A DNA stretch of 49,759 nt, from NCBI GenBank assembly GCA_903874055.1, contig CAIQQR010000038.1, positions 1 to 49,759 of the forward strand, in the 5' to 3' direction. Below the pieces are notes generated by a model. That model was not told the DNA's origin and made no database searches. It was given only the letters and a program-made list of their open reading frames with translations. The DNA comes from an uncultured Bacteroidota bacterium. Its GTDB lineage: Bacteria > Bacteroidota > Bacteroidia > Chitinophagales > Chitinophagaceae. Shown here piece by piece: positions 4,163 through 20,160 of the stretch. Position 1 is the first letter of the stretch, and each line of letters begins with the position of its first letter. The position numbers were made by a program, and so were the translations under genes.

Positions 4163-4230
4163 AAAAACAATTGTTTGTTGAGTAATTGTAATCTTAATTG
4201 CCCCAAATTAGGCAAAATTTCCCTTTTTTG

Positions 4231-4261
4231 TTGGGTATTTTATAAAAGGGTTGTAAATTTG
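4231..4261 (+). promoter_or_regulatory. his operon promoter (TTG-N20-TAAATTTG)
   Basis: The -7 box TAAATTTG at 4254-4261 is a perfect match to TAnnTTTG. TTG at 4231-4233 (with a second TTTG at 4227-4230) gives N20 spacing, identical to the trp promoter. Counting from the -7 and -33 names, transcription would begin at about 4266, on the A of the leader-peptide ATG. Confidence 0.75.
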
Positions 4262-4265
4262 TTGC

Positions 4266-4313
4266 ATGAATTTAAACAACCATATCCATCATCATATGCT
4301 ATCCAAATGGTAA
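4266..4313 (+). CDS. hisL: his operon leader peptide (15 aa, His-rich)
   Basis: A 15-codon ORF runs ATG to TAA and encodes M-N-L-N-N-H-I-H-H-H-M-L-S-K-W. Four of its 15 residues are histidine, three of them consecutive (codons at 4281 and 4287-4295). It lies between the his promoter and an intrinsic terminator just before hisG, which is where a stalling peptide for histidine attenuation belongs. An in-frame TAA at 4254 excludes an upstream start. The ATG is four bases after the -7 box, so the ORF is probably translated from a leaderless or nearly leaderless transcript. The Trp and stop codons (4308-4313) overlap the antiterminator strand. Confidence 0.88.
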   Translation: MNLNNHIHHHMLSKW

Positions 4314-4361
4314 GCTATGGCTTTGTAGGTATGTAACTATATTTAACCAAAGGGCTTACTA
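4308..4361 (+). promoter_or_regulatory. his antiterminator (alternative pairing)
   Basis: TGGTAAGC (4308-4315) can pair with GCTTACTA (4354-4361), and CTTTG (4321-4325) with CAAAG (4348-4352), with a small internal loop. This uses most of the terminator's 5' arm, so it is exclusive with the terminator. A ribosome stalled at the His codons leaves 4308-4315 about free; one reaching the stop codon covers it. This explains how scarce charged tRNA-His would allow read-through into hisG. Confidence 0.7.
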
Positions 4362-4377
4362 AACAGTAAGCCCTTTT
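4349..4377 (+). terminator. his attenuator terminator
   Basis: A perfect 12-bp stem has arms AAAGGGCTTACT (4349-4360) and AGTAAGCCCTTT (4365-4376) and loop AAAC. It is followed by TTTT at 4374-4377 and a further T-rich run. It ends 36 bases before hisG and has no gene before it except the leader peptide, so it acts inside the leader. Confidence 0.88.
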
Positions 4378-4412
4378 AATTTATTTTAAGGCAATTTATA
4401 TAATAAGAAATT

Positions 4413-5267
4413 ATGAGATTAAAGTTAGCGATTCAAAAATCAGGAAGATTAAATGAAGACTCAATGCGTTTGTTGAAGGAATGTGGTATTGATATTGGCA
4501 ATGGAGTAAACAAATTAAAAGCAGATGCGACTAATTTTCCATTAGAACTCTTCTTTTTAAGAGACGATGATATTCCTCAATATGTGGAAGATGGGGTAGC
4601 TGACATTGGATTTGTGGGTGAAAATGTAGTGTATGAAAAAGCAAAGAAAGTAGAAGTAGCTTATGAATTAGGTTTTGGAAAATGTCGCTTGAGTTTTGCA
4701 GTACGTAAAAATGAGGAGTTTACCGGCCCGGCCTTTTTAGAAGGTAAAAAAATAGCAACAAGTTATCCTGTATTGGTTCAAAGGTACTTAGACGAGCATA
4801 AAATAAATGCCGAAGTGCATGAGATTAGCGGTAGTGTAGAAATTGCGCCTGGTATTGGATTGGCTGACGTTGTATGTGATTTAGTAAGCAGTGGCTCTAC
4901 TTTATTTATGAATGGATTGAAAGAAGCGGACACTATTTTAAAATCACAAGCAGTCTTAATAAAACATAAAAATTTCACATCCGAACAACAACAAATATTA
5001 GAGCGATTATTGTTCCGTATGGAGTCTGTTAAAAAGGCAAAGAAAAATAAATATGTTTTATTGAATGCGCCAAATGAACAGTTAGAAAAAATAGTTGCGT
5101 TATTACCAGGTATGAAAAGTCCAACAGTTTTACCCTTGGCTTCACCAGGTTGGAGCAGTGTTCATAGTGTAATTGCAGAGAGTGATTTTTGGGAAATTAT
5201 TGAGCAATTGAAAAATGCAGGAGCAGAAGGAATTTTGGTAATCCCAATTGAAAAAATGATATTATAA
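4413..5267 (+). CDS. hisG: ATP phosphoribosyltransferase, long form
   Basis: HisG catalyses the first committed step of histidine synthesis, joining ATP and PRPP to give phosphoribosyl-ATP. At 284 aa it is the long, hexameric form with a C-terminal ACT-like regulatory domain (about residues 210-284) that binds histidine for feedback inhibition, so it needs no HisZ. Family features are the opening RLKLAIQKSGRL, the DIGFVGENVV segment and the PRPP loop region GIGLADVVCDLVSSGSTL. It is the first enzyme gene after the his attenuator. Its TAA shares a base with the hisD ATG (TAATG), implying translational coupling. Confidence 0.98.
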   Translation: MRLKLAIQKSGRLNEDSMRLLKECGIDIGNGVNKLKADATNFPLELFFLRDDDIPQYVEDGVADIGFVGENVVYEKAKKVEVAYELGFGKCRLSFAVRKNEEFTGPAFLEGKKIATSYPVLVQRYLDEHKINAEVHEISGSVEIAPGIGLADVVCDLVSSGSTLFMNGLKEADTILKSQAVLIKHKNFTSEQQQILERLLFRMESVKKAKKNKYVLLNAPNEQLEKIVALLPGMKSPTVLPLASPGWSSVHSVIAESDFWEIIEQLKNAGAEGILVIPIEKMIL

Positions 5268-6565
5268 TGATTCAAGTTTATAATCAACCTGAACAAAAAG
5301 ATTGGGCTTCACTATTAGCAAGGCCAAGCTTTGATGCGCAAGAATTATTGCCAAGGGTTCAGGCTATTATTGAAGAGGTGCGTTTAAGAGGTGATGCTGC
5401 GGTATTGCAGTACACGAAAGACTTTGATAAAGTGCAATTAAAAACTATTGCATTAAACGAAGCTATTAAGGTAAATGCGGAAACTGCATTGTCTGCAAGT
5501 TTAAAAGCGGCAATACAATTAGCTAAAGGGAATATTGAAAAGTTTCATCAGGCACAGTTACAAAAAATGGAACGTATTGAAACCATGCCGGGTGTTTGGT
5601 GTTGGAGAAAATCGGTAGGAATTGAAACAGTTGGTATTTATATTCCTGGAGGAACAGCTCCTTTATTTTCAACCGTATTAATGTTAGGAATTCCAGCAAA
5701 AATTGCAGGATGTAAAAAAATTATATTGTGCACGCCTCCAAATGATAACGAAGGAAATATACATCCTGCTATCATTTACGCTGCTTCACTTGTAGGCGTC
5801 ACAGATATTTATACCATTGGAGGAGTGCAAGCTATTGCAGCAATGGCTTATGGAACGGATACTATTCCTAAAGTGAATAAAATATTTGGACCAGGTAATC
5901 AGTATGTAACAGCGGCTAAACAATTGGTGCAGCAAACTGGAGTGGCTATTGATATGCCTGCCGGACCAAGTGAGGTATGTGTATGGGCCGATGATGCGGC
6001 TATTCCTTCCTTTGTTGCGGCAGATTTATTATCACAAGCCGAGCATGGCGTAGATAGTCAAGTTTTGTTGGTGGCAAGTAATGAAAAAGTAGTGGAAAAT
6101 GTACAGGTTGAATTAGCGATACAATTGGAGCAACTAAGTAGAAAAGAAGTAGCAGCTAAAGCATTGGCTAATTCAAAAGCCATTATTTTGAACAATACGA
6201 CTGATGCGTTGTTATTAGTGAATCAATATGCACCAGAGCATTTAATATTATCTATTGAAAACGCCGAAATTATTGCTGAAAAAGTAATCAATGCCGGTTC
6301 GGTTTTCATTGGAAATTATTCACCAGAATCAGTAGGTGATTATGCGAGCGGAACGAATCATACCTTACCAACCAATGGTTATGCGCATGCATATAGTGGG
6401 GTAAGTGTTGATAGTTTTGTGAAAAAAATTACCTTCCAACAATTAACTGAGCGTGGATTGATTAATATTGGCCAAGCAGTAATGGAAATGGCCAATGCTG
6501 AAAGTTTGGACGCACATGGAAACGCGGTAGCAGTAAGATTAAATGATATTAAATCAAAAATGTAG
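5267..6565 (+). CDS. hisD: Histidinol dehydrogenase
   Basis: HisD is a zinc enzyme that performs the last two steps, oxidising L-histidinol through histidinal to histidine with two NAD+. The length of 432 aa is normal. Recognised segments are VGIYIPGGTAPLFSTVLM, the GPGNQYVTAAK loop, the AGPSEVCVWAD strand, LLSQAEHG (zinc and substrate ligands), the APEHL motif and the ending region with GNYSPESVGDYASGTNHTLPT. It overlaps hisG by one base and leads into hisC after three bases. Confidence 0.98.
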   Translation: MIQVYNQPEQKDWASLLARPSFDAQELLPRVQAIIEEVRLRGDAAVLQYTKDFDKVQLKTIALNEAIKVNAETALSASLKAAIQLAKGNIEKFHQAQLQKMERIETMPGVWCWRKSVGIETVGIYIPGGTAPLFSTVLMLGIPAKIAGCKKIILCTPPNDNEGNIHPAIIYAASLVGVTDIYTIGGVQAIAAMAYGTDTIPKVNKIFGPGNQYVTAAKQLVQQTGVAIDMPAGPSEVCVWADDAAIPSFVAADLLSQAEHGVDSQVLLVASNEKVVENVQVELAIQLEQLSRKEVAAKALANSKAIILNNTTDALLLVNQYAPEHLILSIENAEIIAEKVINAGSVFIGNYSPESVGDYASGTNHTLPTNGYAHAYSGVSVDSFVKKITFQQLTERGLINIGQAVMEMANAESLDAHGNAVAVRLNDIKSKM

Positions 6566-6568
6566 GAT

Positions 6569-7645
6569 ATGCAATTTGATATAAAAAAAATAGTAAGACC
6601 CATTATAGAAAGCTTGAAGCCATATTCTTCTGCAAAAGATGAATTTAGCGGAGAGGCAAGGATATTATTAGATGCCAATGAGAATAGTTTAGGTTCTCCT
6701 TTAACGAAATGGTATAACAGGTATCCTGATCCCTACCAAAAAGAGATTAAAGAAAAATTATCATTTATAAAAAAAGTATCCGCTTCTCAAATTTTTTTAG
6801 GGAATGGAAGTGATGAAATTATTGATTTATTGTTCCGTGCATTTTGTGAACCAGGCAAGGATAATATCATTATTTGTCCACCCACTTATCCAATGTATGA
6901 AGTGAGTGCCAATATCAATAATGTAGGAATTCAATCGGCACCATTATTGCCCGACTTTCAATTAAATGTTGCACATATTGAGCAATTGGTAAATGAAAAC
7001 ACTAAAATTATTTGGATTTGTTCACCTAATAATCCAACGGGTAATTCATTAGACAGAATTGATATCGAAACTATATTAAATCATTTTAATGGTTTAGTAG
7101 TAGTGGATGAAGCCTATATCAATTTTTCAAAACAAAAATCGTTTGTACAATCATTGGAGGATTATCCCAATTTAGTGGTACTGCAAACTTTAAGTAAAGC
7201 ATGGGGATTGGCCGGATTGAGAGTGGGGATGTGTTTTGCGAATGAATCGATAGTAGGTTATTTAAACAAAGTAAAGGCGCCTTATAATATTAGTTTGGTT
7301 TCGCAGGAGTTGGTTCTAAAAGCCTTGGAGGAAGTGGGCCAAGTAAATGATATGATACAGCACTTGGTAGAAATGCGAATTGCTTTGGCCGAAGTGATTG
7401 CTTCCATGCCTTATGTTGAAAAAGTATATCCATCTGACACGAATTTTCTATTGGTTAAAATTCCGCATGCCACAGATTTATATAAATATTTATGTTCAAA
7501 AGGAATTATTGTAAGAGACCGTTCAAGTTTACCAAATTGTGCTGACAGTGTTCGTATTACAGTGGGTAATGAGCAAGAAAATACAGAACTAGTGGATGCA
7601 ATGGCTGAATGGATAGAAAAAACTTTCACCGCTTCGGAAAACTAA
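6569..7645 (+). CDS. hisC: Histidinol-phosphate aminotransferase
   Basis: This fold-type I PLP enzyme converts imidazole-acetol phosphate and glutamate to histidinol phosphate. It has the family opening around LDANENSLGSP, the NPTGN loop that binds PLP, VVDEAYINF, and the Schiff-base lysine Lys210 in LSKAWGLAGLRVG. At 358 aa it is of standard length. It is third in the his operon and is followed not by hisB, as is common, but by two oxidoreductase genes 43 bases downstream. Confidence 0.97.
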   Translation: MQFDIKKIVRPIIESLKPYSSAKDEFSGEARILLDANENSLGSPLTKWYNRYPDPYQKEIKEKLSFIKKVSASQIFLGNGSDEIIDLLFRAFCEPGKDNIIICPPTYPMYEVSANINNVGIQSAPLLPDFQLNVAHIEQLVNENTKIIWICSPNNPTGNSLDRIDIETILNHFNGLVVVDEAYINFSKQKSFVQSLEDYPNLVVLQTLSKAWGLAGLRVGMCFANESIVGYLNKVKAPYNISLVSQELVLKALEEVGQVNDMIQHLVEMRIALAEVIASMPYVEKVYPSDTNFLLVKIPHATDLYKYLCSKGIIVRDRSSLPNCADSVRITVGNEQENTELVDAMAEWIEKTFTASEN

Positions 7646-7688
7646 TATTAAATTCATCTAATAAATTAACAAACCATATAACGATTTT

Positions 7689-8945
7689 ATGAAAAATCTA
7701 AAACCAATTTTCTTATTTGTAGTAGTAATTTTAGCATTGAACTTGAATGCACAAAGTAATGCAGGATTAAAATTACCAGAAGGATTTAAAGCAACTTTAT
7801 TTGCAGACACTATTGGTAGTGCAAGACATATTGCTGTTACTAAAAGTGGAGTGGTTTTTGCAAAATTAATGTACCCAAATAAAGCAGGAAAAAGTATTAT
7901 CCGTTTGGAGGATGCTAATAAAGATGGTATTGCAGATAAAATTAATGGCTGGGCAAATTACGGAGGTACCGGAATTTTTGTAAAAGGAAAAGATTTATAT
8001 GCAACATCTGATAATGATGTGTATTTATATCAGTTAAATGATAATGATGAAGTTGTTAATCCATCAAGTCCAAAGACCATTGTTAAAGGACTGATTGCAA
8101 AAAATCAACATGCTTCAAAATCAATCACATTGGATGGCGATAATAATGTGTATGTAAATATTGGCGCATATTCAAACGCTTGCCAAGAAAAAGATAGAAC
8201 AGCTGGCTCAAAAGGTATGATGCCTTGTCCAATTTTAGATTCAGCAGGTGGTATTTGGAAATTTAGTGGCACCAAAGAAAATCAAGTATATGGTGATGGT
8301 AAAAGATATGCTACTGGACTACGTAACGTTGTTGGTTTAGATTGGAACACACAATCCAATTCATTATTTGTTATGCAACATGGTCGTGATCAATTAAATA
8401 GTTTTTACCCAACCCTATATAATGATGCTCAAAATGCAGAATTGCCAGCAGAAACTATGTATGAGTTACATGAAGGAGATAATGCAGGATGGCCATATGT
8501 TTACTTTGATCCTTATCAAAAGAAAAAAATATTGGCTCCGGAATATGGTGGTGATGGTAAAAAAGAGGGTGGAGAAAATGCTTTAAATCCAACTGTATTT
8601 TTCCCAGCACATATGGCACCAAACGGTTTGTTATTTTATACTGGCGATCAGTTCCCAGCTAAATATAAAAATGGGGCATTTATTGCATTTCACGGTTCTT
8701 GGAATAGAGCTCCTTTGCCTCAAGAAGGTTATTTTGTTGCCTTTGTACCATTTAAAAATGGAAAACCAAATGGAGAATGGGAAATTTTTGCCAACGGATT
8801 TTCTGGTTTAGCAGACGGTGAAAAAGTAACTAATGTTAGAAAAGTAAAATCAAGACCATGTGGTTTAGCACAAGGACCGGATGGTTCATTGTATGTGAGT
8901 GATGATGCAAGAGGTTCTATTTTTAAAATTAGTTACGCTAAATAA
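7689..8945 (+). CDS. Exported sorbosone-dehydrogenase-like (PQQ-type) beta-propeller oxidoreductase
   Basis: A signal peptide (about 21 residues, ending LNLNAQ) precedes a soluble-glucose-dehydrogenase/L-sorbosone-dehydrogenase fold. Visible motifs include LPEGFKATLFAD, the EF-hand-like DANKDGIAD, YATGLRNVVGLDW, MQHGRDQL, YELHEGDNAGWPYVYFDP, HMAPNGLLFYTGDQFP and FHGSWNRAPLPQEGY. Relatives oxidise sugars or aldoses in the periplasm, and many are assumed to use PQQ; whether this one does is unknown. The next gene is a cytochrome c, a natural electron acceptor. It sits inside the his operon with no promoter of its own that I can see. No PQQ synthesis genes are in the window. Confidence 0.85.
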   Translation: MKNLKPIFLFVVVILALNLNAQSNAGLKLPEGFKATLFADTIGSARHIAVTKSGVVFAKLMYPNKAGKSIIRLEDANKDGIADKINGWANYGGTGIFVKGKDLYATSDNDVYLYQLNDNDEVVNPSSPKTIVKGLIAKNQHASKSITLDGDNNVYVNIGAYSNACQEKDRTAGSKGMMPCPILDSAGGIWKFSGTKENQVYGDGKRYATGLRNVVGLDWNTQSNSLFVMQHGRDQLNSFYPTLYNDAQNAELPAETMYELHEGDNAGWPYVYFDPYQKKKILAPEYGGDGKKEGGENALNPTVFFPAHMAPNGLLFYTGDQFPAKYKNGAFIAFHGSWNRAPLPQEGYFVAFVPFKNGKPNGEWEIFANGFSGLADGEKVTNVRKVKSRPCGLAQGPDGSLYVSDDARGSIFKISYAK

Positions 8946-8994
8946 AGCACAATATTATAATTCAACTTTTTAATAGTTTATTCAACAAAATTTT

Positions 8995-9393
8995 ATGATG
9001 GCAAAGCAATTACCAATTTTATTTTTATCAGTTTTGTTTTTTACTGTTTCAGTTAACGCGCAGGACTTAGTAAAAGGTAAAAAAATATATGAAACTAGGT
9101 GTTTGGCTTGCCATCAAGCGGATGGTGGGGGTGTTCCTAATATGAATGCTCCATTAGACGGATCTAGTAATGTGGTTGGAAATAATATTGCTCGATTGGT
9201 TAAAATAATAAAAGGAGGCTATAGTGAAAAAATAGCTTTGGATGGTTATTATTACAACAATGTGATGACGGCTAATCCTGATTTAAAAGAGGAGGATATT
9301 GCAAATGTGTTAAGTTATGTTAGAACAAGCTGGAGTAATAAAGCTTCAAAAGTGACGGTTGCGCAGGTGCAAGCAGCGCAGCGTAAAAAATAA
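8995..9393 (+). CDS. Exported class I-type cytochrome c
   Basis: This 132-aa protein has a signal peptide (ending near VNAQ) and one haem c site, Cys36-Leu-Ala-Cys39-His40, in a typical KGKKIYETRCLACHQADGGG context. Met91 (NNVMTAN) is the likely distal haem ligand, and a C-terminal helix with EEDIANVLSYVR closes the fold. It would carry electrons in the periplasm, plausibly from the preceding dehydrogenase. Two ATGs are adjacent at 8995 and 8998; either would serve. Its gene is 49 bases after the dehydrogenase and 29 before hisB, so all are probably on one transcript. Confidence 0.9.
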   Translation: MMAKQLPILFLSVLFFTVSVNAQDLVKGKKIYETRCLACHQADGGGVPNMNAPLDGSSNVVGNNIARLVKIIKGGYSEKIALDGYYYNNVMTANPDLKEEDIANVLSYVRTSWSNKASKVTVAQVQAAQRKK

Positions 9394-9422
9394 AAAAAGT
9401 AAAGTTAAATACAAAGCTGAGC

Positions 9423-10553
9423 ATGAAACCAATTCTTTTTATAGATCGTGATGGTGTTATTTTAGAAGAGCCTAAATCGGATTATCAAATTGATAGTATC
9501 GAAAAAACAAGTTTTATTCCAGGTGCTATTAGCTACTTGGGTAAGATTGCTAATGAATTTGGATTTCATAAAGTAATGGTTACGAATCAGGATGGTTTGG
9601 GTACTGAAAGTTATCCAAAATCAAGCTTTGAGCCTTTTCAACAATTAATGTTACGTACGCTAGCTGGGGAGGGATTTGTATTTGATGAAATTTTTATTGA
9701 TGATACATTTGCTGCAGATAATAAACCTACACGTAAGCCAGGTACAGGCATGTTAATGCATCTTTTGAATAATGTTCATTATGATATTCACAATTCATTT
9801 GTGATTGGAGATAGATGGAGTGATATTGCATTGGCAAAAAACATTGGATGTAAAGCAATTTATCTAAAGTCACCTTTACACGAATTAACAGAAGCGCAAG
9901 CATTGGAATTAAGAACAACCATTGCGTTTGAAGCAAATAATTGGGAGGAAATTTATAGTTTTTTAAAATTGGGTTTAAGAAAGGTATCCCATACTCGTAA
10001 TACCAAGGAAACTAAAATTAGTGTGGAATTGAATTTAGATGGGAAAGGAGATGCAAAAATCGAAACTGGTTTGGGCTTCTTTGATCATATGTTAGAACAA
10101 ATTGCACGACATGGTGCATTGGATTTAATTATTAAATGTGATGGCGATTTGCATATTGATGAGCATCATACTATTGAAGATGTGGGTATTGCTTTGGGAG
10201 AAGCCTTTGCTTTAGGTTTAATGGATAAAAGAGGGATGGAGCGCTATGGATATGCTTTACCAATGGACGAAGCAGAAGCAAAAGTATTAATTGATTTTGG
10301 AGGAAGAAATTGGATAGTTTGGGATGCCGAATTTAAACGTGAAAAAATAGGAGAAATGCCTACCGAAATGTTCTTCCATTTTTTCAAGTCTTTTAGTGAT
10401 GCTGCTAAAGCCAATTTAAATATTAGTTGTAAAGGAGACAATGAACACCATAAAATAGAAGCAATTTTCAAAGCATTTGCTAAATCTATAAAAATGGCAG
10501 TTAGACGTAATCCAGACAGCGATGCGTTGCCTAGCACAAAAGGTGTTTTATAA
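9423..10553 (+). CDS. hisB: Bifunctional histidinol-phosphatase / imidazoleglycerol-phosphate dehydratase
   Basis: This is a fusion of two his activities. Residues 1 to about 170 form a HAD-type histidinol-phosphate phosphatase with the DxD nucleophile pair Asp8/Asp10 (FIDRDGV) and GDRWSDIALAKNIG. Residues about 185-376 are imidazoleglycerol-phosphate dehydratase with the metal-binding GFFDHMLEQIARHG and DEHHTIEDVGIALGEA motifs and the second histidine cluster NEHHKIEA. The fused form occurs in enterobacteria and is common in Bacteroidota. It is the last his gene before the trp leader, and the his genes resume at hisH nearly 7 kb later. Confidence 0.97.
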   Translation: MKPILFIDRDGVILEEPKSDYQIDSIEKTSFIPGAISYLGKIANEFGFHKVMVTNQDGLGTESYPKSSFEPFQQLMLRTLAGEGFVFDEIFIDDTFAADNKPTRKPGTGMLMHLLNNVHYDIHNSFVIGDRWSDIALAKNIGCKAIYLKSPLHELTEAQALELRTTIAFEANNWEEIYSFLKLGLRKVSHTRNTKETKISVELNLDGKGDAKIETGLGFFDHMLEQIARHGALDLIIKCDGDLHIDEHHTIEDVGIALGEAFALGLMDKRGMERYGYALPMDEAEAKVLIDFGGRNWIVWDAEFKREKIGEMPTEMFFHFFKSFSDAAKANLNISCKGDNEHHKIEAIFKAFAKSIKMAVRRNPDSDALPSTKGVL

Positions 10554-10607
10554 GTTACTAACAAATGATAGCATTTGGCCTAATATTTGTGAATTTAAAT
10601 AGAATTT

Positions 10608-10639
10608 TTTGGCAAGGAAAGCGCAAAACTGTAATTTTG
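10608..10639 (+). promoter_or_regulatory. trp operon promoter (TTTG-N20-TAATTTTG)
   Basis: TTTG at 10608-10611 (end of a TTTTTTG run) is followed after 20 bases by TAATTTTG at 10632-10639, a perfect TAnnTTTG box. Predicted transcription start is about 10644, seven bases before the leader-peptide ATG. It lies in the 97-base gap after hisB, so trp has its own promoter in addition to any read-through from his. Confidence 0.75.
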
Positions 10640-10650
10640 CCTTAGAATAA

Positions 10651-10713
10651 ATGATAATGAAAAAGACAAACAATATTTGGTGGTGGCATACAAACTCCGT
10701 TGGGGTATTGTAG
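10651..10713 (+). CDS. trpL: trp operon leader peptide (20 aa, three consecutive Trp)
   Basis: A 20-codon ORF from ATG (10651) to TAG (10711-10713) encodes M-I-M-K-K-T-N-N-I-W-W-W-H-T-N-S-V-G-V-L. The three Trp codons at 10678-10686 are the stalling site. Trp is rare in proteins, so three in a row directly before a terminator and trpE is strong evidence. A second ATG at 10657 could be the real start; the stalling site is the same. The codons GTT GGG GT after the Trp run (10699-10706) are the antiterminator strand. Confidence 0.92.
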   Translation: MIMKKTNNIWWWHTNSVGVL

Positions 10714-10753
10714 TGACATAACTATTATTGTCAAAATATACATAAACCCCGAC
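10699..10753 (+). promoter_or_regulatory. trp antiterminator (alternative pairing)
   Basis: GTTGGGGT (10699-10706) can pair with ACCCCGAC (10746-10753), eight pairs with one G-U, which removes the core of the terminator's 5' arm. A small TGACA/TGTCA hairpin (10714-10718 with 10729-10733) fits inside. The strand starts 12 bases after the last Trp codon, so a ribosome stalled on Trp leaves it about free, while one at the TAG covers it. Confidence 0.7.
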
Positions 10754-10778
10754 ATCCAATGTCGGGGTTTATTTTTTT
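10743..10778 (+). terminator. trp attenuator terminator
   Basis: A perfect 13-bp stem has arms TAAACCCCGACAT (10743-10755) and ATGTCGGGGTTTA (10759-10771), with a closing three-base loop or two fewer pairs and a wider one. Seven T residues (10772-10778) follow directly. It lies 53 bases before trpE. Confidence 0.93.
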
Positions 10779-10831
10779 CCATTATCGCTCCGCAAAAAAA
10801 AATATTAAAACGAAAGAATTTAAAATAGGAC

Positions 10832-12244
10832 ATGCAAAAGAAGCAAATTACAACTACTGTATCAAGAATGCTTGCGGATACATATACTCCAGTGGGTATT
10901 TATCTGCGATTAAGAGATAGGTTTAGAGATACTATTTTATTAGAAAGCACGGATTCTCATGCTTCTGAAAATAGTTATTCTTTTATTGGGGTGAATGCGA
11001 TTGGTGGAATTGAAATCTCCTCTTTAAATCAGATTGAATATAAATATCCAAATCAGGATCCTGAAAAAGAAACTATTCAAAATGTACATGCCGCACCAGA
11101 TCGTATTTGGGCTTATATGCAACAATATGAAATGAAAGGGCAGGAAGTAAAAGAGGCCGCTTTTGCACAAGGTTTATATGGTTATACAGCCTATGATGCC
11201 ATTCCATTTTTTGATACGATTGAATTTAAAAATGGAGCTGATGCAGTGCCTTTAATGCGTTATCGTCTTTATCAATATGTTATTGCCTTTAATCATTTCA
11301 AAGACGAAATTTTTATTTGTGAAAATAAATTAGAAGGGATTGCTTCCGAATATGATGCTTTAGTTTCTTTTATTAAAAGTAAGGATGTTCCTCAGTATCC
11401 ATTTAGTTTACAAGGCGGTGAAAGTTCAAATTTAACAGATGAAGAATATCGTGAGGCTGTGAAAAAAGGAATTCAGCATTGTATGCGTGGAGATGTTTTT
11501 CAAATTGTATTAAGTAGACGCTTTCAACAATCTTTTCAAGGGGATGAATTTAATGTATACCGTACTTTAAGAAATATCAACCCTTCTCCTTATTTATTTT
11601 TCTTTGATTACGGTGATTATAAATTAATGGGGTCATCACCAGAGGCGCAAATTATAATCAATAATGGGAAAGCAGTCGTGCATCCAATAGCCGGTACCTT
11701 TAAAAGAACAGGGGACGCAATAGTGGATGCGAATATGACACAAAAATTGTTAGATGATCCAAAGGAAAATGCAGAACATGTGATGTTAGTGGATTTAGCG
11801 CGAAACGATTTAAGTAGAGTATGTACCGAAGTACGTGTTAAGCAATATCGTCAAGTACATTATTATAGTCATGTGATTCATTTGGTAAGCGAGGTAGAAG
11901 GGAAGGTTGCTGAAGGATCGAATCCATTTCATTTGATTGCAAAAACTTTTCCTGCAGGTACATTAAGTGGTGCACCTAAGTTTAAAGCCATGCAAATTAT
12001 TGATACCATCGAGCCTACAAAACGTTCCTATTATGGGGGATGTATTGGGTTTGTTGGTTTTAATGGCACTTGTAATCAAGCTATTATGATTCGTACATTC
12101 TTAAGTCAACAAAACACTTTGACTTATCAAGCTGGTGCTGGGGTAGTAGCTGCATCCGTTCCTGAAAGTGAATTGCAGGAAGTAAATAATAAATTGAATG
12201 CTTTAAAAACAGCAATGGTATTGGCAGAAAAAATTCACGATTAA
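10832..12244 (+). CDS. trpE: Anthranilate synthase component I
   Basis: TrpE uses chorismate and ammonia supplied by TrpG to make anthranilate, the first tryptophan step. Residues 36-39 are LLES, the tryptophan-binding feedback motif, so the enzyme should be Trp-inhibited. The chorismate-binding core includes GSSPEAQI, HPIAGTFKRTGD, MLVDLARNDLSRV, FPAGTLSGAPKFKAMQIID and the closing GAGVVAASVPESE. The length is 470 aa. It is the first structural gene after the trp attenuator. The core could also suggest PabB, but LLES and the neighbours settle it as TrpE. Confidence 0.98.
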   Translation: MQKKQITTTVSRMLADTYTPVGIYLRLRDRFRDTILLESTDSHASENSYSFIGVNAIGGIEISSLNQIEYKYPNQDPEKETIQNVHAAPDRIWAYMQQYEMKGQEVKEAAFAQGLYGYTAYDAIPFFDTIEFKNGADAVPLMRYRLYQYVIAFNHFKDEIFICENKLEGIASEYDALVSFIKSKDVPQYPFSLQGGESSNLTDEEYREAVKKGIQHCMRGDVFQIVLSRRFQQSFQGDEFNVYRTLRNINPSPYLFFFDYGDYKLMGSSPEAQIIINNGKAVVHPIAGTFKRTGDAIVDANMTQKLLDDPKENAEHVMLVDLARNDLSRVCTEVRVKQYRQVHYYSHVIHLVSEVEGKVAEGSNPFHLIAKTFPAGTLSGAPKFKAMQIIDTIEPTKRSYYGGCIGFVGFNGTCNQAIMIRTFLSQQNTLTYQAGAGVVAASVPESELQEVNNKLNALKTAMVLAEKIHD

Positions 12245-12276
12245 ACTTTAGAGTTTTAAAAGATAAAAGAGCGCAA

Positions 12277-12846: not shown

Positions 12847-12888
12847 TATAAATGAGCGTAACTATTTTTTAATGAATGTATTAAAAAC

Positions 12889-13881
12889 ATGAAAAAACTA
12901 TTACAATATTTATTTGAACATAAAACCTTAACCAGGGAACAGGCTAAGGAAGTATTGGTTCAAATTTCGCAGGGTGCTTATAATGAGCATGAAGTAACTT
13001 CCTTTGTGACAGTATTTTTAATGCGTAGTATCACCATTGAAGAATTGATGGGTTTTAGAGATGCTTTATTATCACTTGCTGTTAAAGTGGATTTGGGAGT
13101 AGACAATGCAATGGATATAGTAGGCACGGGTGGTGATGGAAAAGACACCTTTAATATTTCTACTTTAGCTTGTTTTATAGTGGCGGGTGCTGGGCAACCT
13201 ATTGTGAAGCATGGTAATTATGGGGCTTCAAGTGTGAGCGGTTCTTCCAATGTAATGGAGCAGTTGGGGTATACCTTTAAAAATGATCAAGCGCAATTAT
13301 CAAAAGAAGTTAAAGAGGCTGGTATTTGTTTTTTACATGCTCCTTTGTTTCATCCAGCTTTAAAAACGGTGGGTCCCATTCGTCGTAACATTGGGGTACG
13401 CACTTTCTTTAACATGTTAGGACCCATTGTAAATCCTGCTCAACCTAAGTATCAATTAATTGGTGTATATAATTTAGAGATGGCGCGTATCTATAATTAT
13501 GTTTTACAGTCCTTGGGAAAAGAGTTTACCGTAATTAATAGTTTGGATGGCTATGATGAAATTTCTTTAACGGCAGATACCAAAATTGTAACCAATAAAG
13601 GGGAATTTACTTTGTCACCTTACGAGTTAGGCAAAAAACGTGTTATGCAAGAAGAGCTAGCAGGTGGCGCAACAGTGGAAGAAGCAGCAACCATCTTTAG
13701 AAATATTATTCAGGGTAAAGGGACTTGGTCACAAAATGCAGTGGTGTTGGCAAATGCTGCAATGGCTTTAAACTTAACAGGCAAGTATGAAAATTACGAG
13801 CAGGCTTATCAAGCTGCTGTAACTAGTTTAGAATCAGGTGCTGCATATAATTGTTTACAAAAATTAATAAGTCTGCAATAA
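12889..13881 (+). CDS. trpD: Anthranilate phosphoribosyltransferase
   Basis: TrpD joins anthranilate to PRPP to give phosphoribosylanthranilate. At 330 aa it has the glycine-rich pyrophosphate-binding loop GTGGDG (79-84) in DIVGTGGDGKDTFNISTLA, then KHGNYGASS (from 107), and the anthranilate-site region around RRNIGVRTFFNMLGPIVNPA. Its last base overlaps the trpC ATG (TAATG), a coupling arrangement like that of hisG/hisD. Confidence 0.97.
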   Translation: MKKLLQYLFEHKTLTREQAKEVLVQISQGAYNEHEVTSFVTVFLMRSITIEELMGFRDALLSLAVKVDLGVDNAMDIVGTGGDGKDTFNISTLACFIVAGAGQPIVKHGNYGASSVSGSSNVMEQLGYTFKNDQAQLSKEVKEAGICFLHAPLFHPALKTVGPIRRNIGVRTFFNMLGPIVNPAQPKYQLIGVYNLEMARIYNYVLQSLGKEFTVINSLDGYDEISLTADTKIVTNKGEFTLSPYELGKKRVMQEELAGGATVEEAATIFRNIIQGKGTWSQNAVVLANAAMALNLTGKYENYEQAYQAAVTSLESGAAYNCLQKLISLQ

Positions 13882-14666
13882 TGAGTACCAATATTTTAGC
13901 AAAAATTGTAGAGACTAAGTTTGGCGAAGTAGCTGAAAGAAAAAAGCAAATAAGTATTGCACAATTGCAAGCTATGCCTTTGTTTGAAAAACCAGGTAAC
14001 TCTTTAAAAACTAATATACTAGATACCACTAAAAACGGCATTATTGCTGAATTTAAAAGACAATCCCCATCAAAAGGAATTATCAATGCTATGGCTAACG
14101 TTGAAGATGTTGCAAAAGCATATACTCAGTTTGGTGCTTCTGGAATATCTGTTTTAACGGATGAAACTTATTTTGGAGGAAGCCTGGCTGATTTAAGTAT
14201 AGCAGTACAAAATGCTATCCCCGTTTTGCGCAAAGAATTTATCATTGATGAATTTCAAATTATTGAAGCCAAAGCTTATGGTGCTTCTGTAATTTTATTA
14301 ATAGCATCTTGTTTAACTCCAGCTGAAACTAAAATTTTAGCGAGTGTAGCAAAAGGTTTAGGTTTAGAAGTTTTATTGGAATTGCATGACGCATCAGAAT
14401 TAGGCCATGTGTGTGAGGATGTTGATTTAGTAGGGATCAATAATAGGAGTTTAAAATCCTTTGAAGTAAATATTGAACATTCTTTACAATTGAAAAATTT
14501 GTTGCCTAAGGGAAAGCTAAGTATAGCGGAGAGTGGTATTTATGATTTGGCTACTTTTCAATTATTGAAAAAAGAAGGCTTTGACGGATTTTTGATGGGT
14601 GAATATTTTATGAAACAAGAAAATCCTGCAAAAGCATTTCAGGAATTTAGTCAACAAATAAAATAA
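13881..14666 (+). CDS. trpC: Indole-3-glycerol-phosphate synthase
   Basis: TrpC closes the indole ring from carboxyphenylamino-deoxyribulose phosphate in a TIM barrel. Motifs include IIAEFKRQSPSKG (Glu57, Lys59), FGASGISVLTDETYFGGS, VLRKEFIIDEFQI, LLIASCLTP, GINNRSLKSFEV and AESGI. I set the start at the ATG at 13881 (261 aa), which overlaps the trpD stop as TAATG; a longer frame from a TTG at 13851 would run 30 bases into trpD and adds nothing conserved. The enzyme is separate from TrpF, unlike the fused E. coli protein. Confidence 0.96.
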   Translation: MSTNILAKIVETKFGEVAERKKQISIAQLQAMPLFEKPGNSLKTNILDTTKNGIIAEFKRQSPSKGIINAMANVEDVAKAYTQFGASGISVLTDETYFGGSLADLSIAVQNAIPVLRKEFIIDEFQIIEAKAYGASVILLIASCLTPAETKILASVAKGLGLEVLLELHDASELGHVCEDVDLVGINNRSLKSFEVNIEHSLQLKNLLPKGKLSIAESGIYDLATFQLLKKEGFDGFLMGEYFMKQENPAKAFQEFSQQIK

Positions 14667-14693
14667 AATTGAATTTTTAGAAATTATAATAAA

Positions 14694-15353
14694 ATGAGGT
14701 CATTAAAAATTAAAGTTTGCGGAATCACGGATATAAATCAAGCCATTGCATTGGAAGCAATGGGCGTGGACTTTATTGGCTTTATTTTTTATGTACCATC
14801 TAAAAGATATGTATTAAATGGTTTACAGTTGAGTGATATTAAAAATTTTACTCCAATAAATGCTAAAAAAGTAGGGGTCTTTGTAAATGAACCTGTTGAG
14901 CATGTAATAAATATTGTAACAAATGCAGGCTTGGATATGGTGCAATTACATGGGGATGAGGATTTGGAATATTACACACAATTAAGGGCACAATTATTGG
15001 AAGCGTCTTTACAATACGTTCAATTGATAAAAGTATTTAGAGTAGGTGATAAAATGCCCGATTTAGCACCATTTGAAAATAGTGCCGATTATTTTTTATT
15101 TGACACAGACAGTAAAATGTATGGCGGAACAGGTGCTCATTTTAATTGGGAGCTTATAAAAGGAAATGCCATTAGTAAGCCTTATTTTTTAAGTGGAGGC
15201 ATTGGTCCCAATGATTTAGGGGGCATTGAAGTAATGAAAAAAACAAAAGCAGGCATGGATTTGTTTGCTTTGGATGTAAATAGTCAATTTGAACTAGCGC
15301 CAGGTTATAAAAATGTAGAAAAAATTAAATCCTTTATAGATGCACTCATTTAA
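14694..15353 (+). CDS. trpF: Phosphoribosylanthranilate isomerase
   Basis: TrpF performs the Amadori rearrangement of phosphoribosylanthranilate, chemically the same as HisA's reaction. The expected general base Cys9 (KVCGITD) and general acid Asp137 (LFDTDS) are present, with GGTGAHFNW and [11 protein letters not shown] phosphate-binding loops. The length is 219 aa. A true trpF next to a true hisA excludes the shared PriA enzyme known from actinobacteria. The 3' end overlaps trpB by 14 bases. Confidence 0.96.
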
Positions 15354-16551
15354 CAAGTCAATCAATTATCAAGACCCTAGTGCCGAAGGTTACTATGGTG
15401 ATTTTGGAGGTGCGTACATTCCAGAAATGTTGTACAGCAATGTAGAGACTTTAAAAACGCAGTACTTGCAAATTATGCAGGATCCTGAATTTCAAAAAGA
15501 GTTTCATGCTTTGTTAAAAGATTATGTTGGAAGACCCACTCCTTTGTTTTACGCTGAAAGATTAAGCAAGGAAATTGGTACCCAAATTTATTTGAAGCGT
15601 GAAGACCTTTGTCATACCGGTGCACATAAAATAAATAATACCATTGGTCAAATTTTGTTAGCACATCGTTTAGGTAAAACAAAAATTATTGCAGAAACAG
15701 GTGCCGGTCAACATGGTGTGGCAACAGCAACAGTTTGCGCTTTGAAAGGATTAGAGTGTGTTGTGTATATGGGGGAGAAAGATATTGAGCGACAGGCGCC
15801 CAATGTAGCCCGAATGAAAATGTTAGGCGCGAAAGTAGTACCTGCAACAAGCGGAAGTAAAACCTTGAAAGATGCTACCAATGAAGCTATTCGTGCATGG
15901 ATTAATGAACCTAATGAAACACATTATATTATTGGCAGCGTTGTAGGGCCTCACCCTTATCCAGATATGGTAGCTCGTTTTCAAAGTGTAATAAGTGATG
16001 AGATTCGCAAGCAGTTAAAAGAAAAAACTGGTTCGGAATTGCCAACGCATGTAGTGGCTTGTGTGGGTGGAGGATCAAATGCAGCTGGCGCTTTTTATCA
16101 TTTTTTAAATGAAGAGACAGTGGATTTAGTAGCAGTAGAAGCCGCTGGTCATGGAGTTAATTCTGGATTGAGTGCGGCAACTACACAATTGGGTAAGCCG
16201 GGTATTTTGCATGGAAGTAAAAGTATATTAATGCAAACTGCGGACGGCCAAGTGGTGGAGCCTCACAGTATCAGTGCCGGATTGGATTATCCTGGTATTG
16301 GTCCATTGCATGCATTTTTATATGAAAGCAAGCGAGGAACATTCACTAGTGCCACTGATGAAGAAGCATTACAATGGGCTTTTCATTTATCAGAGATTGA
16401 AGGGATTATTCCTGCATTAGAAACAGCACATGCTTTTGCTATTTTGCCAAAAATGAATTTTAAACCCAATGATGTGGTGGTAGTTTGTTTAAGTGGAAGA
16501 GGGGATAAGGATTTGGCTACTTATATGCAAGTAATGGATATGAAAAAATAA
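15340..16551 (+). CDS. trpB: Tryptophan synthase beta chain
   Basis: TrpB condenses indole with serine using PLP. It has the canonical opening [16 protein letters not shown], the PLP lysine Lys97 in [20 protein letters not shown], the phosphate loop [10 protein letters not shown] and the C-terminal [11 protein letters not shown]. It is the TrpB1 type that pairs with TrpA. The ATG at 15340 lies inside trpF; the next in-frame ATG would remove conserved residues, so the 14-base overlap is real and suggests coupled translation. Confidence 0.97.
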
Positions 16552-16599
16552 ATTAAACATCAATCAATATCCTTAACCGGATTTTTTAAAGAATAGTAT

Positions 16600-17370
16600 A
16601 TGTCAAGGTTATCTGAATTATTTAAGAAACAAAATAAACGTGTATTGAATGTGTATTGCACTGCTGGTTTTCCGCAGCTCAATAGTACTTTGCAAGTAAT
16701 GGAAAGTTTGCAAGCAAATGGTGCAAATATTATTGAATTAGGAATGCCTTATAGTGACCCTTTGGCAGATGGGGAAGTAATACAATCAAGTGGCAATGTA
16801 GCATTAGCAAACGGAATGACTATTGAAACCTTATTTGAGCAATTATCAACAATGCGCAATAGCATTCATATCCCAGTAGTATTAATGGGTTATATGAATC
16901 CTATTTTACAATATGGTTTTGAAGCATTTTGTAAAAAAGCAAAGGCAGTAGGTGTGGACGGTTTAATTTTGCCCGACCTTCCTTTGTTTGAGTTTGAACA
17001 TTTATATGGAAAAACCATTCAAGATAATAGTTTAGATTTTATTTTTTTAGTGACGCCAGAAACACCTGAAGATAGATTAAGAAAATTAGATGCTTTAAGT
17101 AGTGGATTTTTATATGCAGTAAGTTCATCGGCAACTACTGGTAAGGATAAAGATTTTTCAAAAGTGGCAGGGTACTTGCAAAAGTTACAAGCCATGAATT
17201 TAAAAAATCCTGTATTAGTTGGTTTTGGAATAAAGGATAAAGAAACTTTTGAAGCAGTATGTGCTTACTCCAATGGTGCTATCATTGGCTCTGCTTATAT
17301 CAATGCCTTGTCAAAAGGGACTGATGTAAATGAAACTACCGAACAATTTTTAAAAGCTGTTTTAAACTAA
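16600..17370 (+). CDS. trpA: Tryptophan synthase alpha chain
   Basis: TrpA splits indole-glycerol phosphate to indole, which is channelled to TrpB. The catalytic Glu46 (IELGMPYSDPLADG) and Asp57 are in place. FLVTPETPEDR and VSSSATTGKD carry the usual loop region, and GFGIKDKETF supplies the phosphate-binding turn. The length is 256 aa. It is the last trp gene; only 36 A/T-rich bases separate it from hisH, and I find no terminator or promoter box in them. Confidence 0.96.
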   Translation: MSRLSELFKKQNKRVLNVYCTAGFPQLNSTLQVMESLQANGANIIELGMPYSDPLADGEVIQSSGNVALANGMTIETLFEQLSTMRNSIHIPVVLMGYMNPILQYGFEAFCKKAKAVGVDGLILPDLPLFEFEHLYGKTIQDNSLDFIFLVTPETPEDRLRKLDALSSGFLYAVSSSATTGKDKDFSKVAGYLQKLQAMNLKNPVLVGFGIKDKETFEAVCAYSNGAIIGSAYINALSKGTDVNETTEQFLKAVLN

Positions 17371-17406
17371 TTAAAAAAAATTTGATTTAGTAATTTAAAA
17401 GAATAA

Positions 17407-17997
17407 ATGAGTTTAGTAATTATACAATATAATGCGGGTAACATTCAGTCAGTGCTATATGCATTGGAGCGATTAGGTGTGCAGGCAACTGTTACAGATA
17501 ATTTGGATGCAATACAAACAGCAGACAAAGTGATATTTCCAGGAGTGGGAGAAGCTAGTACAGCCATGGAATATTTACAAGAAAGAGGGTTGGATAAAAT
17601 AATCAAAAATTTAAAACAACCGGTATTAGGTATTTGTTTAGGGATGCAATTAATGTGTACTTATTCAGAGGAAAATGATACGAATTGTTTAGGCATATTT
17701 GAAGAACAGGTAAAATTATTTAAGCCCAATGAAGCAACAATAAAGGTTCCTCAAATAGGATGGAATACAATTACTAACTTAAAATCTAATTTATTTAAAG
17801 GAGTAAGTGATGAAATCTTTACTTATTTTGTACATGGCTATTATGCAGCATTAGGCGAACATACCATTGCTACTACCAATTATATTCAACCTTATAGTAG
17901 TGCATTGCATAAGGATAATTTTTATGGGGTACAGTTTCATCCAGAAAAATCTGCGAAAGTAGGTGAGCAAATTCTTCAAAACTTTTTAAGCTTATAG
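17407..17997 (+). CDS. hisH: Imidazole glycerol phosphate synthase, glutaminase subunit
   Basis: HisH supplies ammonia from glutamine to HisF. The triad is Cys77 (LGICLGMQ), His178 and Glu180 (FHPEKS), and FPGVGEASTAM is the oxyanion region. The length of 196 aa is typical. This gene resumes the his operon after the trp block. Because the trp operon runs straight into it with no visible promoter, its expression should depend on the trp promoter and attenuator and on whatever his transcription passes the trp terminator. It is two bases from hisA. Confidence 0.96.
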   Translation: MSLVIIQYNAGNIQSVLYALERLGVQATVTDNLDAIQTADKVIFPGVGEASTAMEYLQERGLDKIIKNLKQPVLGICLGMQLMCTYSEENDTNCLGIFEEQVKLFKPNEATIKVPQIGWNTITNLKSNLFKGVSDEIFTYFVHGYYAALGEHTIATTNYIQPYSSALHKDNFYGVQFHPEKSAKVGEQILQNFLSL

Positions 17998-17999
17998 TA

Positions 18000-18713
18000 A
18001 TGCAAATAATTCCAGCAATAGATTTAATAGAAGGCAAATGCGTACGCTTAACGGAAGGGGACTATGCGCAAAAGAAAATATACAATGAAGATCCTTTGGA
18101 AGTAGCAAAAGCTTTTGAAGGTATTGGCCTCATGCGTTTACATTTGGTAGACTTAGATGGCGCCAAAGCTGGCGAAGTAGTGAATTGGAAAGTGCTAGAA
18201 AAAATCGCCAATCAAACAAGTTTGAAAATTGATTTTGGGGGAGGAATTAAAAAAGAAAGCACCTTAAAATCAGTATTGGATTCGGGAGCAGCTTATGCAA
18301 CTATTGGTAGCTTGGCGGTGAAAAATAGAAATTTGTTTGAAGAATGGATAGCGCGTTTTGGTGCGGCGGTTTTTATGCTAGGTGCGGATGTATTTGAAGA
18401 AAAAATTGCAATTGGGGGTTGGTTGGAAAAAACAGATATCGACGTATATACATTTATGCAATCGTACCTAAATAAAGGTTTGATGCAAATGTTTTGTACG
18501 GATATTCAAAAGGACGGAAAGTTGCAAGGTCCTTCAATTAATTTGTATAAAAAAATCATTGCTAAATTTCCACCCTTGCAATTAATAGCAAGTGGTGGTG
18601 TTAGTAATTTGCAGGATTTAATAGACCTCCGAGAAATAGGATGTGCTGCAGCCATCGTGGGTAAGGCCATTTATGAAAACAGAATTAGTTTAGACGAATT
18701 AAGTAAATTTTAA
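18000..18713 (+). CDS. hisA: ProFAR isomerase
   Basis: HisA isomerises the ProFAR aminoaldose to the ketose PRFAR. It is a two-fold repeated beta/alpha barrel with catalytic Asp8 (IPAIDLIEGKCVRL) and Asp130 (MLGADV), plus phosphate loops FGGGIKKEST and ASGGVSNLQDL. The length of 237 aa is normal. It is separated from hisH by two bases and from hisF by 22. Confidence 0.96.
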   Translation: MQIIPAIDLIEGKCVRLTEGDYAQKKIYNEDPLEVAKAFEGIGLMRLHLVDLDGAKAGEVVNWKVLEKIANQTSLKIDFGGGIKKESTLKSVLDSGAAYATIGSLAVKNRNLFEEWIARFGAAVFMLGADVFEEKIAIGGWLEKTDIDVYTFMQSYLNKGLMQMFCTDIQKDGKLQGPSINLYKKIIAKFPPLQLIASGGVSNLQDLIDLREIGCAAAIVGKAIYENRISLDELSKF

Positions 18714-18735
18714 AAGTCTTTTTTAAAAGTAAATC

Positions 18736-19494
18736 ATGTTAACAAAAAGAATCATACCCTGCTTAGATATCAAAGACGGCCGAACGGTGAAGGGTGTTAA
18801 TTTTGAGCAAATCCGAGATGCGGGTGATCCTATTGAATTGGGTGCTTTTTATGCGGAGCAAGGAGCAGATGAATTGGTATTTTTAGATATTACAGCTACC
18901 GTTGAAAAACGTAAAACATTAAGTGAGTTAGTTAATAAAATTGCACATAAAATAAATATTCCTTTTACTGTGGGCGGTGGTATAAAAACCGAAGAAGATG
19001 TGCGTATTCTTTTGCAAAGTGGGGCGGATAAAATTTCAGTGAACACTGCTGCATTTCTAGACCCTACTATTATCAATCGATTTGCAAAAAATTTTGGTAG
19101 TCAATGTGTAGTATTAGCTATTGATGCTAAATGTGAAGAGGACAATAATTGGTATGTATATTTAAATGGAGGGCGTAATAAAACGAATAAGTTAGTTACC
19201 GAATGGGCAAAAGAAGCAGTTGATTTGGGGATAGGTGAAATATTGTTAACCTCTATGAATCATGATGGAACTAAACAAGGTTTTGCTTTGGATATTACAG
19301 CGCAATTAGGGGAAACATTGCCCGTTCCTATCATTGCTTCGGGTGGTGGTGGAAATGAGCAACATTTTTATGATGTTTTTACAAAGGGAAAAGCGGATGC
19401 TGCCTTGGCTGCAAGTATTTTCCATTATAAGGAAGTTGCGATACCTGATTTAAAACAATACCTACATCAAAAAGGCATTGCCATAAGATTATAA
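18736..19494 (+). CDS. hisF: Imidazole glycerol phosphate synthase, cyclase subunit
   Basis: HisF uses HisH's ammonia to turn PRFAR into imidazole glycerol phosphate and AICAR, the latter recycled to purines. The two catalytic aspartates are Asp11 ([16 protein letters not shown]) and Asp130 (VLAIDAK). The phosphate loops [11 protein letters not shown] and [13 protein letters not shown] are both present. The length is 252 aa. It follows hisA as in most his operons. Confidence 0.97.
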
Positions 19495-19513
19495 ACATTT
19501 ATTAATTTCAATT

Positions 19514-20122
19514 ATGAATATCAATTTTTCAAAATACGCGGATGGTCTAGTGCCTGCTATTGTACAGGATGCCAATACAAAAGCCGTATTAATGATGGGC
19601 TTTATGAATCAAGAGGCAGTGGATGCTACTTTGTCTCAACAAAAAGTTACTTTTTATAGCAGGTTAAAATCAAGATTATGGACCAAAGGAGAAGAGAGCG
19701 GTAACTTTTTAAGTTTCGTGAGTATGTCCATAGATTGTGACAATGATACTTTGTTAATTCAAGCCAATCCACTTGGACCTGTTTGCCATAATGGTACAGA
19801 TACTTGTTGGGGAAGCTCCAATATACCATCCAACACTAATTTTTTAAATACGTTGGAAGGGGTTATTGCACAAAGAAAATCAGCAGCAGCAGATACCTCT
19901 TATGTGGCTAGTTTATTTGCCAAAGGCATTAATAAAATTGCACAAAAAGTAGGAGAGGAAGCAGTGGAAGTAGTAATTGAAGCAAAGGATAATAATGAAG
20001 AGCTATTTCTTGACGAATCTGCCGATTTATTATTCCATTACCTAATATTATTACAAGCTAAGGGGTACACTTTAAGCGATGTTGTAAAGGTATTGTCAGA
20101 TAGACATGCTTCAAAAGAGTAA
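19514..20122 (+). CDS. hisI: Bifunctional phosphoribosyl-AMP cyclohydrolase / phosphoribosyl-ATP pyrophosphatase
   Basis: This is the fused HisIE protein, steps two and three of the pathway. Residues 1 to about 105 are the zinc- and magnesium-dependent cyclohydrolase, with ligand cysteines Cys75, Cys91 and Cys98 (DCDND, CHNGTDTCWG). Residues about 112-202 are the MazG-like pyrophosphatase with KVGEEAVEVVIEA and the acidic DESADLLFHYLILL helix. With it, every histidine enzyme from HisG to HisD is encoded in the window. It ends the supraoperon; no strong terminator follows, only a poor bulged GTACTA/TAGTAC hairpin (20126-20151). Confidence 0.97.
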   Translation: MNINFSKYADGLVPAIVQDANTKAVLMMGFMNQEAVDATLSQQKVTFYSRLKSRLWTKGEESGNFLSFVSMSIDCDNDTLLIQANPLGPVCHNGTDTCWGSSNIPSNTNFLNTLEGVIAQRKSAAADTSYVASLFAKGINKIAQKVGEEAVEVVIEAKDNNEELFLDESADLLFHYLILLQAKGYTLSDVVKVLSDRHASKE

Positions 20123-20152
20123 TTGGTACTATTAAAAATGGCTTTTAGTACT

Positions 20153-20160
20153 TATATTTG
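20153..20160 (+). promoter_or_regulatory. -7 element for the TlpA-like gene
   Basis: TATATTTG is a perfect TAnnTTTG box 55 bases before the ATG at 20216. No TTG lies at the ideal 17-23 bases upstream (the nearest is 27 bases away), so the match rests on the -7 box alone. Confidence 0.45.

Follow-up and report, generated by a model that had tools for sequence, protein, structure and literature searches.

A trp operon within a his operon

We analysed a 49,759-nt contig (hereafter the window; GenBank CAIQQR010000038.1, assembly GCA_903874055.1) from an uncultured member of the Chitinophagaceae, in which a complete trp operon lies inside a complete his operon and each block follows a putative attenuator. 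Pfam matches and open reading frames (ORFs) give the order, on the plus strand throughout, of his leader, hisG-D-C, two oxidoreductase genes, hisB, trp leader, trpE-G-D-C-F-B-A and hisH-A-F-IE. The genes, identified with Pfam, and the gap at the trpA-hisH joint are as follows:

4413-5267, +, hisG
5267-6565, +, hisD
6569-7645, +, hisC
7689-8945, +, glucose/sorbosone-dehydrogenase-like gene within the his block
8995-9393, +, cytochrome c gene within the his block
9423-10553, +, hisB, bifunctional (HAD-like and imidazoleglycerol-phosphate dehydratase)
10832-12244, +, trpE
10832-17370, +, the whole block of trpE, G, D, C, F, B and A
16600-17370, +, trpA
17371-17406, +, trpA-hisH gap of 36 nt, with neither a terminator nor a TAnnTTTG box in scans for both
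17407-17997, +, hisH
17407-20122, +, the whole block of hisH, hisA, hisF and hisIE
19514-20122, +, hisIE

The source genome comprises 131 contigs and has a single HisH match. A tRNA-His (GTG) gene lies on the minus strand at 30235-30311, ~10 kb past hisIE.

Putative his and trp attenuators

The elements assigned to the two leader regions are:

4254-4261, +, TAAATTTG, putative Bacteroidetes-type -7 promoter box of the his block (consensus match)
4266-4313, +, his leader peptide ORF MNLNNHIHHHMLSKW
4309-4315, +, predicted antiterminator arm of the his leader, GGUAAGC, which shares bases with the leader stop codon and pairs with the 5' side of the terminator
4349-4376, +, his attenuator terminator, a 12-pair stem with a U-rich tail
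10632-10639, +, TAATTTTG, putative -7 promoter box of the trp block (consensus match)
10651-10713, +, trp leader peptide ORF MIMKKTNNIWWWHTNSVGVL, with a second ATG at 10657 (ORF and genus comparison)
10670-10731, +, protector (1:2) hairpin predicted by folding, enclosing the control codons and the antiterminator arm
10678-10689, +, control codons UGG UGG UGG CAU (Trp Trp Trp His; ORF and genus comparison)
10699-10706, +, antiterminator arm GUUGGGGU, pairing with ACCCCGAC of the terminator (swap test)
10742-10772, +, trp attenuator terminator, a hairpin with a T-rich tail (terminator scan and genus comparison)

Within positions 4100-20400, the only plus-strand terminator-like sites with at least 12 pairs are those of the two leaders, all others having at most 8 pairs; neither the interval from hisB to the trp leader nor the trpA-hisH joint of the window has one of at least 12 pairs. 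Both leaders recur in the genus. The run of His codons is present at 19 of 20 same-genus loci, including the window, and is followed by a terminator at 18 of 20, with GGUAAGC of the his leader pairing with GCUUAC of the his terminator. Among 30 same-genus loci with a callable trp leader, again including the window, the control run is Trp-Trp-Trp-His (WWWH) at 29 and WWGH at one, and a terminator follows at all 30. The trp leader region (10668-10778) folds with a z-score of -4.57, a stability equalled by none of 200 shuffled sequences. Since the genus repeats both leaders and the trp leader is more stably folded than all 200 shuffles, we do not attribute the leaders and terminators to chance. 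Rfam covariance models run over the whole window at their gathering scores matched only tRNA, and no trp or his leader family.

A switch is supported by co-variation of the trp antiterminator: across 23 distinct leaders from the genus, native arm pairs have a mean energy of -13.03 kcal/mol versus -11.93 kcal/mol for swapped pairs, and only 2 of 5000 permutations were as good. A long hairpin around the control codons appears in all 30 single-sequence folds of the genus leaders; its support rests on these folds, the alignment consensus being weak (-7.7 kcal/mol). Taken together, these predicted elements make up the classic three-way attenuation switch. The stop codon of the trp leaders in the genus often overlaps a start-like triplet (UAAUG or UAGUG), the UG of which pairs with the CA of the His codon.

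Gene order in the genus and beyond

We searched for HisH in 100 relatives, 60 of them in the same genus, and fetched 60 loci; 54 of these are from the genus and represent all its searched genomes with a full-length HisH match. trpA stands directly before hisH at all 54, with a gap of 2-51 nt at 53 and of 99 nt at the remaining one. This 99-nt gap (in L085) contains an antisense tRNA-Gly (CCC) gene at 14392-14465. Where more than 900 nt upstream of trpE is available, hisB precedes trpE at 25 of 28 same-genus loci, with a hisB-trpE gap of 183-302 nt at 17 of the 25. The three exceptions (G008, G051 and G053) have no his front block in the 5.4-8.1 kb upstream of trpE and retain the junction of trp with hisHAFIE. 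In G008 and G051, hisG-D-C-..-hisB with its own His leader is found on another contig, so that hisHAFIE lies behind the trp leader alone; in G053, the one trace of the block is a truncated hisG, lying at the end of a contig and accompanied by a His leader. The sorbosone-dehydrogenase-like and cytochrome c genes lie between hisC and hisB at 23/23 and 22/23, respectively, of the same-genus loci that show the interval. The initial annotation had claimed the gene order, with every histidine and tryptophan enzyme on one strand, the 36-base trpA-hisH spacing free of a promoter box or terminator, and attenuators in series before both blocks, and had proposed comparing gene order among relatives. Pfam identification and the scans bear out the first two claims, the leaders, terminators and their conservation in the genus argue for the third, and the comparison finds the nested order to be recurrent.

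Nested or trp-hisH-joined arrangements also occur in other Chitinophagaceae (e.g. G134, L160, L169 and L174), in the family that includes Cecembia and Algoriphagus, which from matching records and general taxonomy we take to be Cyclobacteriaceae, in g72 (G210 and G241), and in Carboxylicivirga. In the cases examined outside Chitinophagaceae, one or two genes separate trpA from hisH: a 3-deoxy-D-arabino-heptulosonate 7-phosphate (DAHP) synthase gene, by Pfam, in Cecembia and G210, ORFs similar in size to DAHP synthase in L150, L216, L246 and L254, and two other genes in Carboxylicivirga. The DAHP synthase interval spans 16782-18756 in L191 (Cecembia), which additionally has a biopterin-dependent aromatic amino acid hydroxylase gene there, and 7402-8418 in L251. 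In G078, from another family, trpE-G-D-C follows hisB on one contig, trpF-B-A-hisH lies on another, and the trp leader reads WWWN. The Carboxylicivirga locus L194 has, upstream of trpE at 10001, the trp leader MNLNSRHNWHWHHSNLSARS with alternating Trp and His codons, and its hisHAFIE begins ~1.6 kb past trpA. A Flavobacteriaceae locus (L218, Ga0077528) has a complete his operon followed by a trp operon at 2775-16401, in tandem rather than nested, with the leader NWWHMTNS.

Chitinophagaceae in which his and trp are unlinked indicate where the two operons meet. We checked the gene upstream of hisH in 18 of 23 such genomes, and hisB is the nearest detected gene in 17; in the other, Limnovirga (G362), trpB-trpA-hisH stands apart from trpE. 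The trp genes thus occupy the place where hisB and hisH adjoin in an ordinary his operon, as would be expected if trp was either inserted there or removed from there.

Proposed mechanism of serial attenuation

The sequence itself shows the gene order, the leaders and terminators, the arm pairing (with co-variation for trp) and the conservation of these features. The mechanism that we infer from them involves promoters, ribosome stalling, cotranscription, cross-control and, possibly, His sensing. We propose, with a probability of roughly 0.75, that a complete trp operon, its own promoter and attenuator retained, interrupts a standard his operon (hisG-D-C-B-H-A-F-IE) at the hisB-hisH junction, and hence that two ribosome-mediated attenuators act in series. 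The his attenuator would control hisG-D-C, the two oxidoreductase genes and hisB, and the trp attenuator would control trpEGDCFBA together with hisHAFIE, acting both on polymerases from the trp promoter and on those reading through from the his promoter. A ribosome stalled at the trp control codons would break the protector hairpin and free GUUGGGGU, which could then pair with the CCCCGAC arm of the terminator, such that transcription continues; a ribosome that reaches the leader stop codon would instead cover the GUUGGGGU arm, allowing the terminator to form. With His as the fourth control codon, lack of His may open the trp attenuator too. A ribosome with the usual footprint stalled on this codon would leave most of the antiterminator arm free.

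Dependence of hisHAFIE on Trp supply is plausible: the layout of the genes implies it, and G008 and G051 make the case sharper. The initial annotation had predicted this dependence, and had further predicted that starvation for His alone would raise hisHAFIE no further than the trp attenuator permits. The first part remains plausible; the second may need revision, because the trp leader itself holds a His codon, and its attenuator may therefore read His directly.

A His codon in the trp leader

Is the His codon there because the operon carries half of the his pathway? We asked how often trp leaders have this codon (H) in genomes that are linked, i.e. with hisH or hisF located past the trp genes and in the same direction. 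Two of the linkage searches covered 80 of 97 and 80 of 88 genomes. The wider set has 110 genomes, after removal of duplicate loci and of 25 rows with no leader called or with linkage unknown; of the 30 leaders from the genus it includes 12, and the 18 not included are all linked and have H. The family sets at first set aside 21 genomes (fragmented, not searched or not fetched), uncalled leaders, and L165, L174 and L200; extended versions add 15 ambiguous genomes as unlinked, plus these three. The WWGH leader (L070) counts as H in the family sets and in the Pagel-type tests, and not in the wider-set table. In the wider set, the codon is present in 26 of 27 linked rows, the 27th being WWGH, versus 19 of 83 unlinked rows, with p = 9e-5 in a Pagel-type test. 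For 79 Chitinophagaceae genomes the counts are 53/56 linked versus 11/23 unlinked (Fisher p = 7e-6), and when dependence is assessed on the TrpE tree with a Pagel-type test, the likelihood ratio is 17.1 (p = 0.0018), with a His loss rate of 2.05 when unlinked versus 0.08 when linked. The extended family set of 89 genomes gives 54/57 versus 20/32 (Fisher p = 0.0002; Pagel p = 0.0016), with loss at 0.65 versus 0.12. Pagel tests with few events on a weakly supported tree can mislead.

In Chitinophagaceae, the Trp-Trp-Trp-His run and its association with linkage suggest a two-amino-acid attenuator. Codons for both amino acids are present in the control run, and the association with linkage is found in Chitinophagaceae and is absent from Cyclobacteriaceae. 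That the trp attenuator is bivalent, responding to the charging of both Trp and His tRNAs because half of the his pathway is encoded in the trp operon, and that the His codon decays once hisHAFIE leaves, is a tentative proposal to which we give somewhat less than even odds. Several results count against it. There is no association in 66 Cyclobacteriaceae genomes (24/31 linked versus 19/35 unlinked; Fisher p = 0.07, Pagel p = 0.78) or in the extended set of 74 (24/31 versus 27/43; p = 0.21, Pagel p = 0.82). Pair tests confined to supported branches yield few independent contrasts: in Chitinophagaceae, 2 pairs with 1.5 changing the same way and 0 the opposite way, and in the extended set 6 pairs with 1.4 and 0.5; in Cyclobacteriaceae, 7 pairs with 1.3 and 1.1, and in the extended set 10 pairs with 1.1 and 1.8; in the wider set, 3 pairs with 1.1 and 0.0. 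Three linked Chitinophagaceae (G370, G408 and G311) carry Gln instead of His, and of the four in which HisF was not found, L173 and L179 keep H, and L161 and G387 do not. Lastly, all 15 of the ambiguous genomes added back have H, which lowered our confidence in a bivalent attenuator slightly. L173 has sorbosone-dehydrogenase-like and cytochrome c genes in front of trpE.

We consider it somewhat more probable that the His codon is kept by descent or for RNA pairing, its CA pairing with UG past the stop codon in the protector hairpin, than for His sensing. In 48 of the 53 linked Chitinophagaceae leaders that have His, pairing involves at least two of the three bases of the codon, a further point against a sensing role, and leaders of this family without His mostly have Gln (11/15), which retains CA. 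The next codon, ACA, is conserved at the nucleotide level (46/64), and the frequencies of H in unlinked Cyclobacteriaceae, in unlinked rows of the wider set and in the ambiguous genomes point the same way. Other observations fit pairing less well: the His:Gln ratio in Chitinophagaceae is 53:3 in linked versus 11:8 in unlinked genomes (Fisher p = 0.0005, kinship ignored), H is lost faster when unlinked in both versions of the family set, and the synonymous CAC is used in 10 of 64 Chitinophagaceae His leaders, five of which have no third-base partner in the predicted fold. We rejected the idea that the codon is a phylum-wide marker of his genes in the trp operon, since Cyclobacteriaceae commonly have H whether linked or unlinked, and unlinked Roseivirga, Adhaeribacter and most Mucilaginibacter rows also have it.

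Alternatives to serial control

The initial annotation had claimed that transcription must reach hisH from upstream, either from the trp promoter or by read-through from his. The sequence favours this claim, given the lack of a terminator of at least 12 pairs at the joint, the lack of a promoter box near hisH, and the loci at which the his front block is elsewhere. Both leaders in the window have a TAnnTTTG box upstream and a TTG further up, the promoter type of Bacteroidetes. The box precedes the his leader at 17 of 18 genus loci (1.7 expected from shuffles), and an exact match precedes the trp leader at 17 of 30 (2.2 expected).

An unlikely alternative is that hisHAFIE has a start of its own inside trpA, constitutive or controlled by His, in which case the nesting would have no regulatory effect. 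In the window, there is no TAnnTTTG box within 150 nt upstream of hisH, the trpA-hisH gap is short at 53 of the 54 genus loci, and sigma-70-like matches in 4100-20400 number 60 versus 71.5 expected from shuffles, although weak ones do fall in trpA. In favour of such a start, the his operons of Escherichia coli and Salmonella enterica have internal promoters (PMC10138114), and some relatives in the genus have promoter-like sequences in trpA, as described below.

The following observations weigh against serial attenuators in a single transcript. A TAnnTTTG box lies within trpA, 128-145 nt before hisH, at 8 of 52 genus loci (3.9 expected), and all eight have an upstream TTG (0.9 expected), such that there may be an internal promoter for hisH in some relatives. 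The promoter boxes are consensus matches, the exact trp box being present at just 17 of 30 loci. For the his antiterminator, the swap test did not discriminate, 1551 of 5000 permutations being as good as the native pairing; one genus locus (L049) has no his leader by our calling rule, and another (L059) no his terminator. Finally, 8 of 25 loci have a hisB-trpE gap of 691-2316 nt, which may hold other genes or signals. An artefact of assembling or binning one metagenome bin, to which the 131 contigs of the source genome might point, is ruled out by the repeat of the order at the 25 of 28 informative same-genus loci, including the one-contig genomes G010 and G017, and by the published report of trp genes within the his operon in two other species (PMC8305728).

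Comparison with known systems

The two published species, Filimonas lacunae and Thermoflavifilum thermophilum, presumably belong to Chitinophagaceae or near kin. In both, genes for tryptophan biosynthesis break up the his operon, and short gaps were taken as a sign of a single operon (Del Duca et al., 2021; PMC8305728); the likeness to our locus is drawn from the description in that text rather than from exact gene order. The main text of the same paper does not use the word "leader" and has "attenuat" once, with regard to enterobacteria. The initial annotation had held that no such system was described. This does not stand for a his operon interrupted by trp, known from 2021; for serial his and trp attenuators, we found no description in the literature surveyed, which was mostly without subscription journals and without a 2010 comparative study of attenuation. 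The arrangement is thus known in outline, serial attenuators appear to be undescribed in that literature, and the His codon in the trp leader appears to be new, with a putative role.

The E. coli ilvGMEDA and thr leaders are multivalent, one leader answering to more than one amino acid, with linked pathways yielding those amino acids; what joins Trp and His here is instead the gene order, and His sensing is putative. The E. coli trp operon is not known to hold Arg genes. Its leader has an Arg codon directly after two Trp codons that is also a control codon (PMC1183508), so such a codon need not match the products of the operon; the position of this non-Trp codon resembles that of His here. Indeed, the trp and his attenuators of E. 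coli and Salmonella, as that source describes them, have the same leader peptide, control codons, and protector, antiterminator and terminator hairpins, but precede two separate operons, whereas those described here are serial in one run of genes.

In Bacillus subtilis, trp control is by TRAP rather than by a leader peptide. The aro supraoperon of that species is similar in having a trp operon set into another amino-acid operon, beside the aminotransferase gene hisHb, and differs in having no complete his operon (PMC1173090). Within the phylum, a Flavobacterium transcriptome study gives clues for leader-peptide attenuation before amino-acid operons (PMC9723704), and a Bacteroides transcriptome study notes possible leader ORFs (PMC7366714).

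Attenuators usually come one per operon; two in series would make half of one pathway respond first to a different amino acid. The differences in gene order among Chitinophagaceae are a natural experiment on how the codons of a leader track the genes under its control. Should the His codon be functional, it would be a case of a regulatory code adapting to operon fusion. If the trp attenuator is indeed bivalent, the leader peptide would have adapted in evolution to foreign genes placed downstream, and Carboxylicivirga, where hisHAFIE lies behind trp and the leader reads NWHWHH, would offer a second instance that arose independently.

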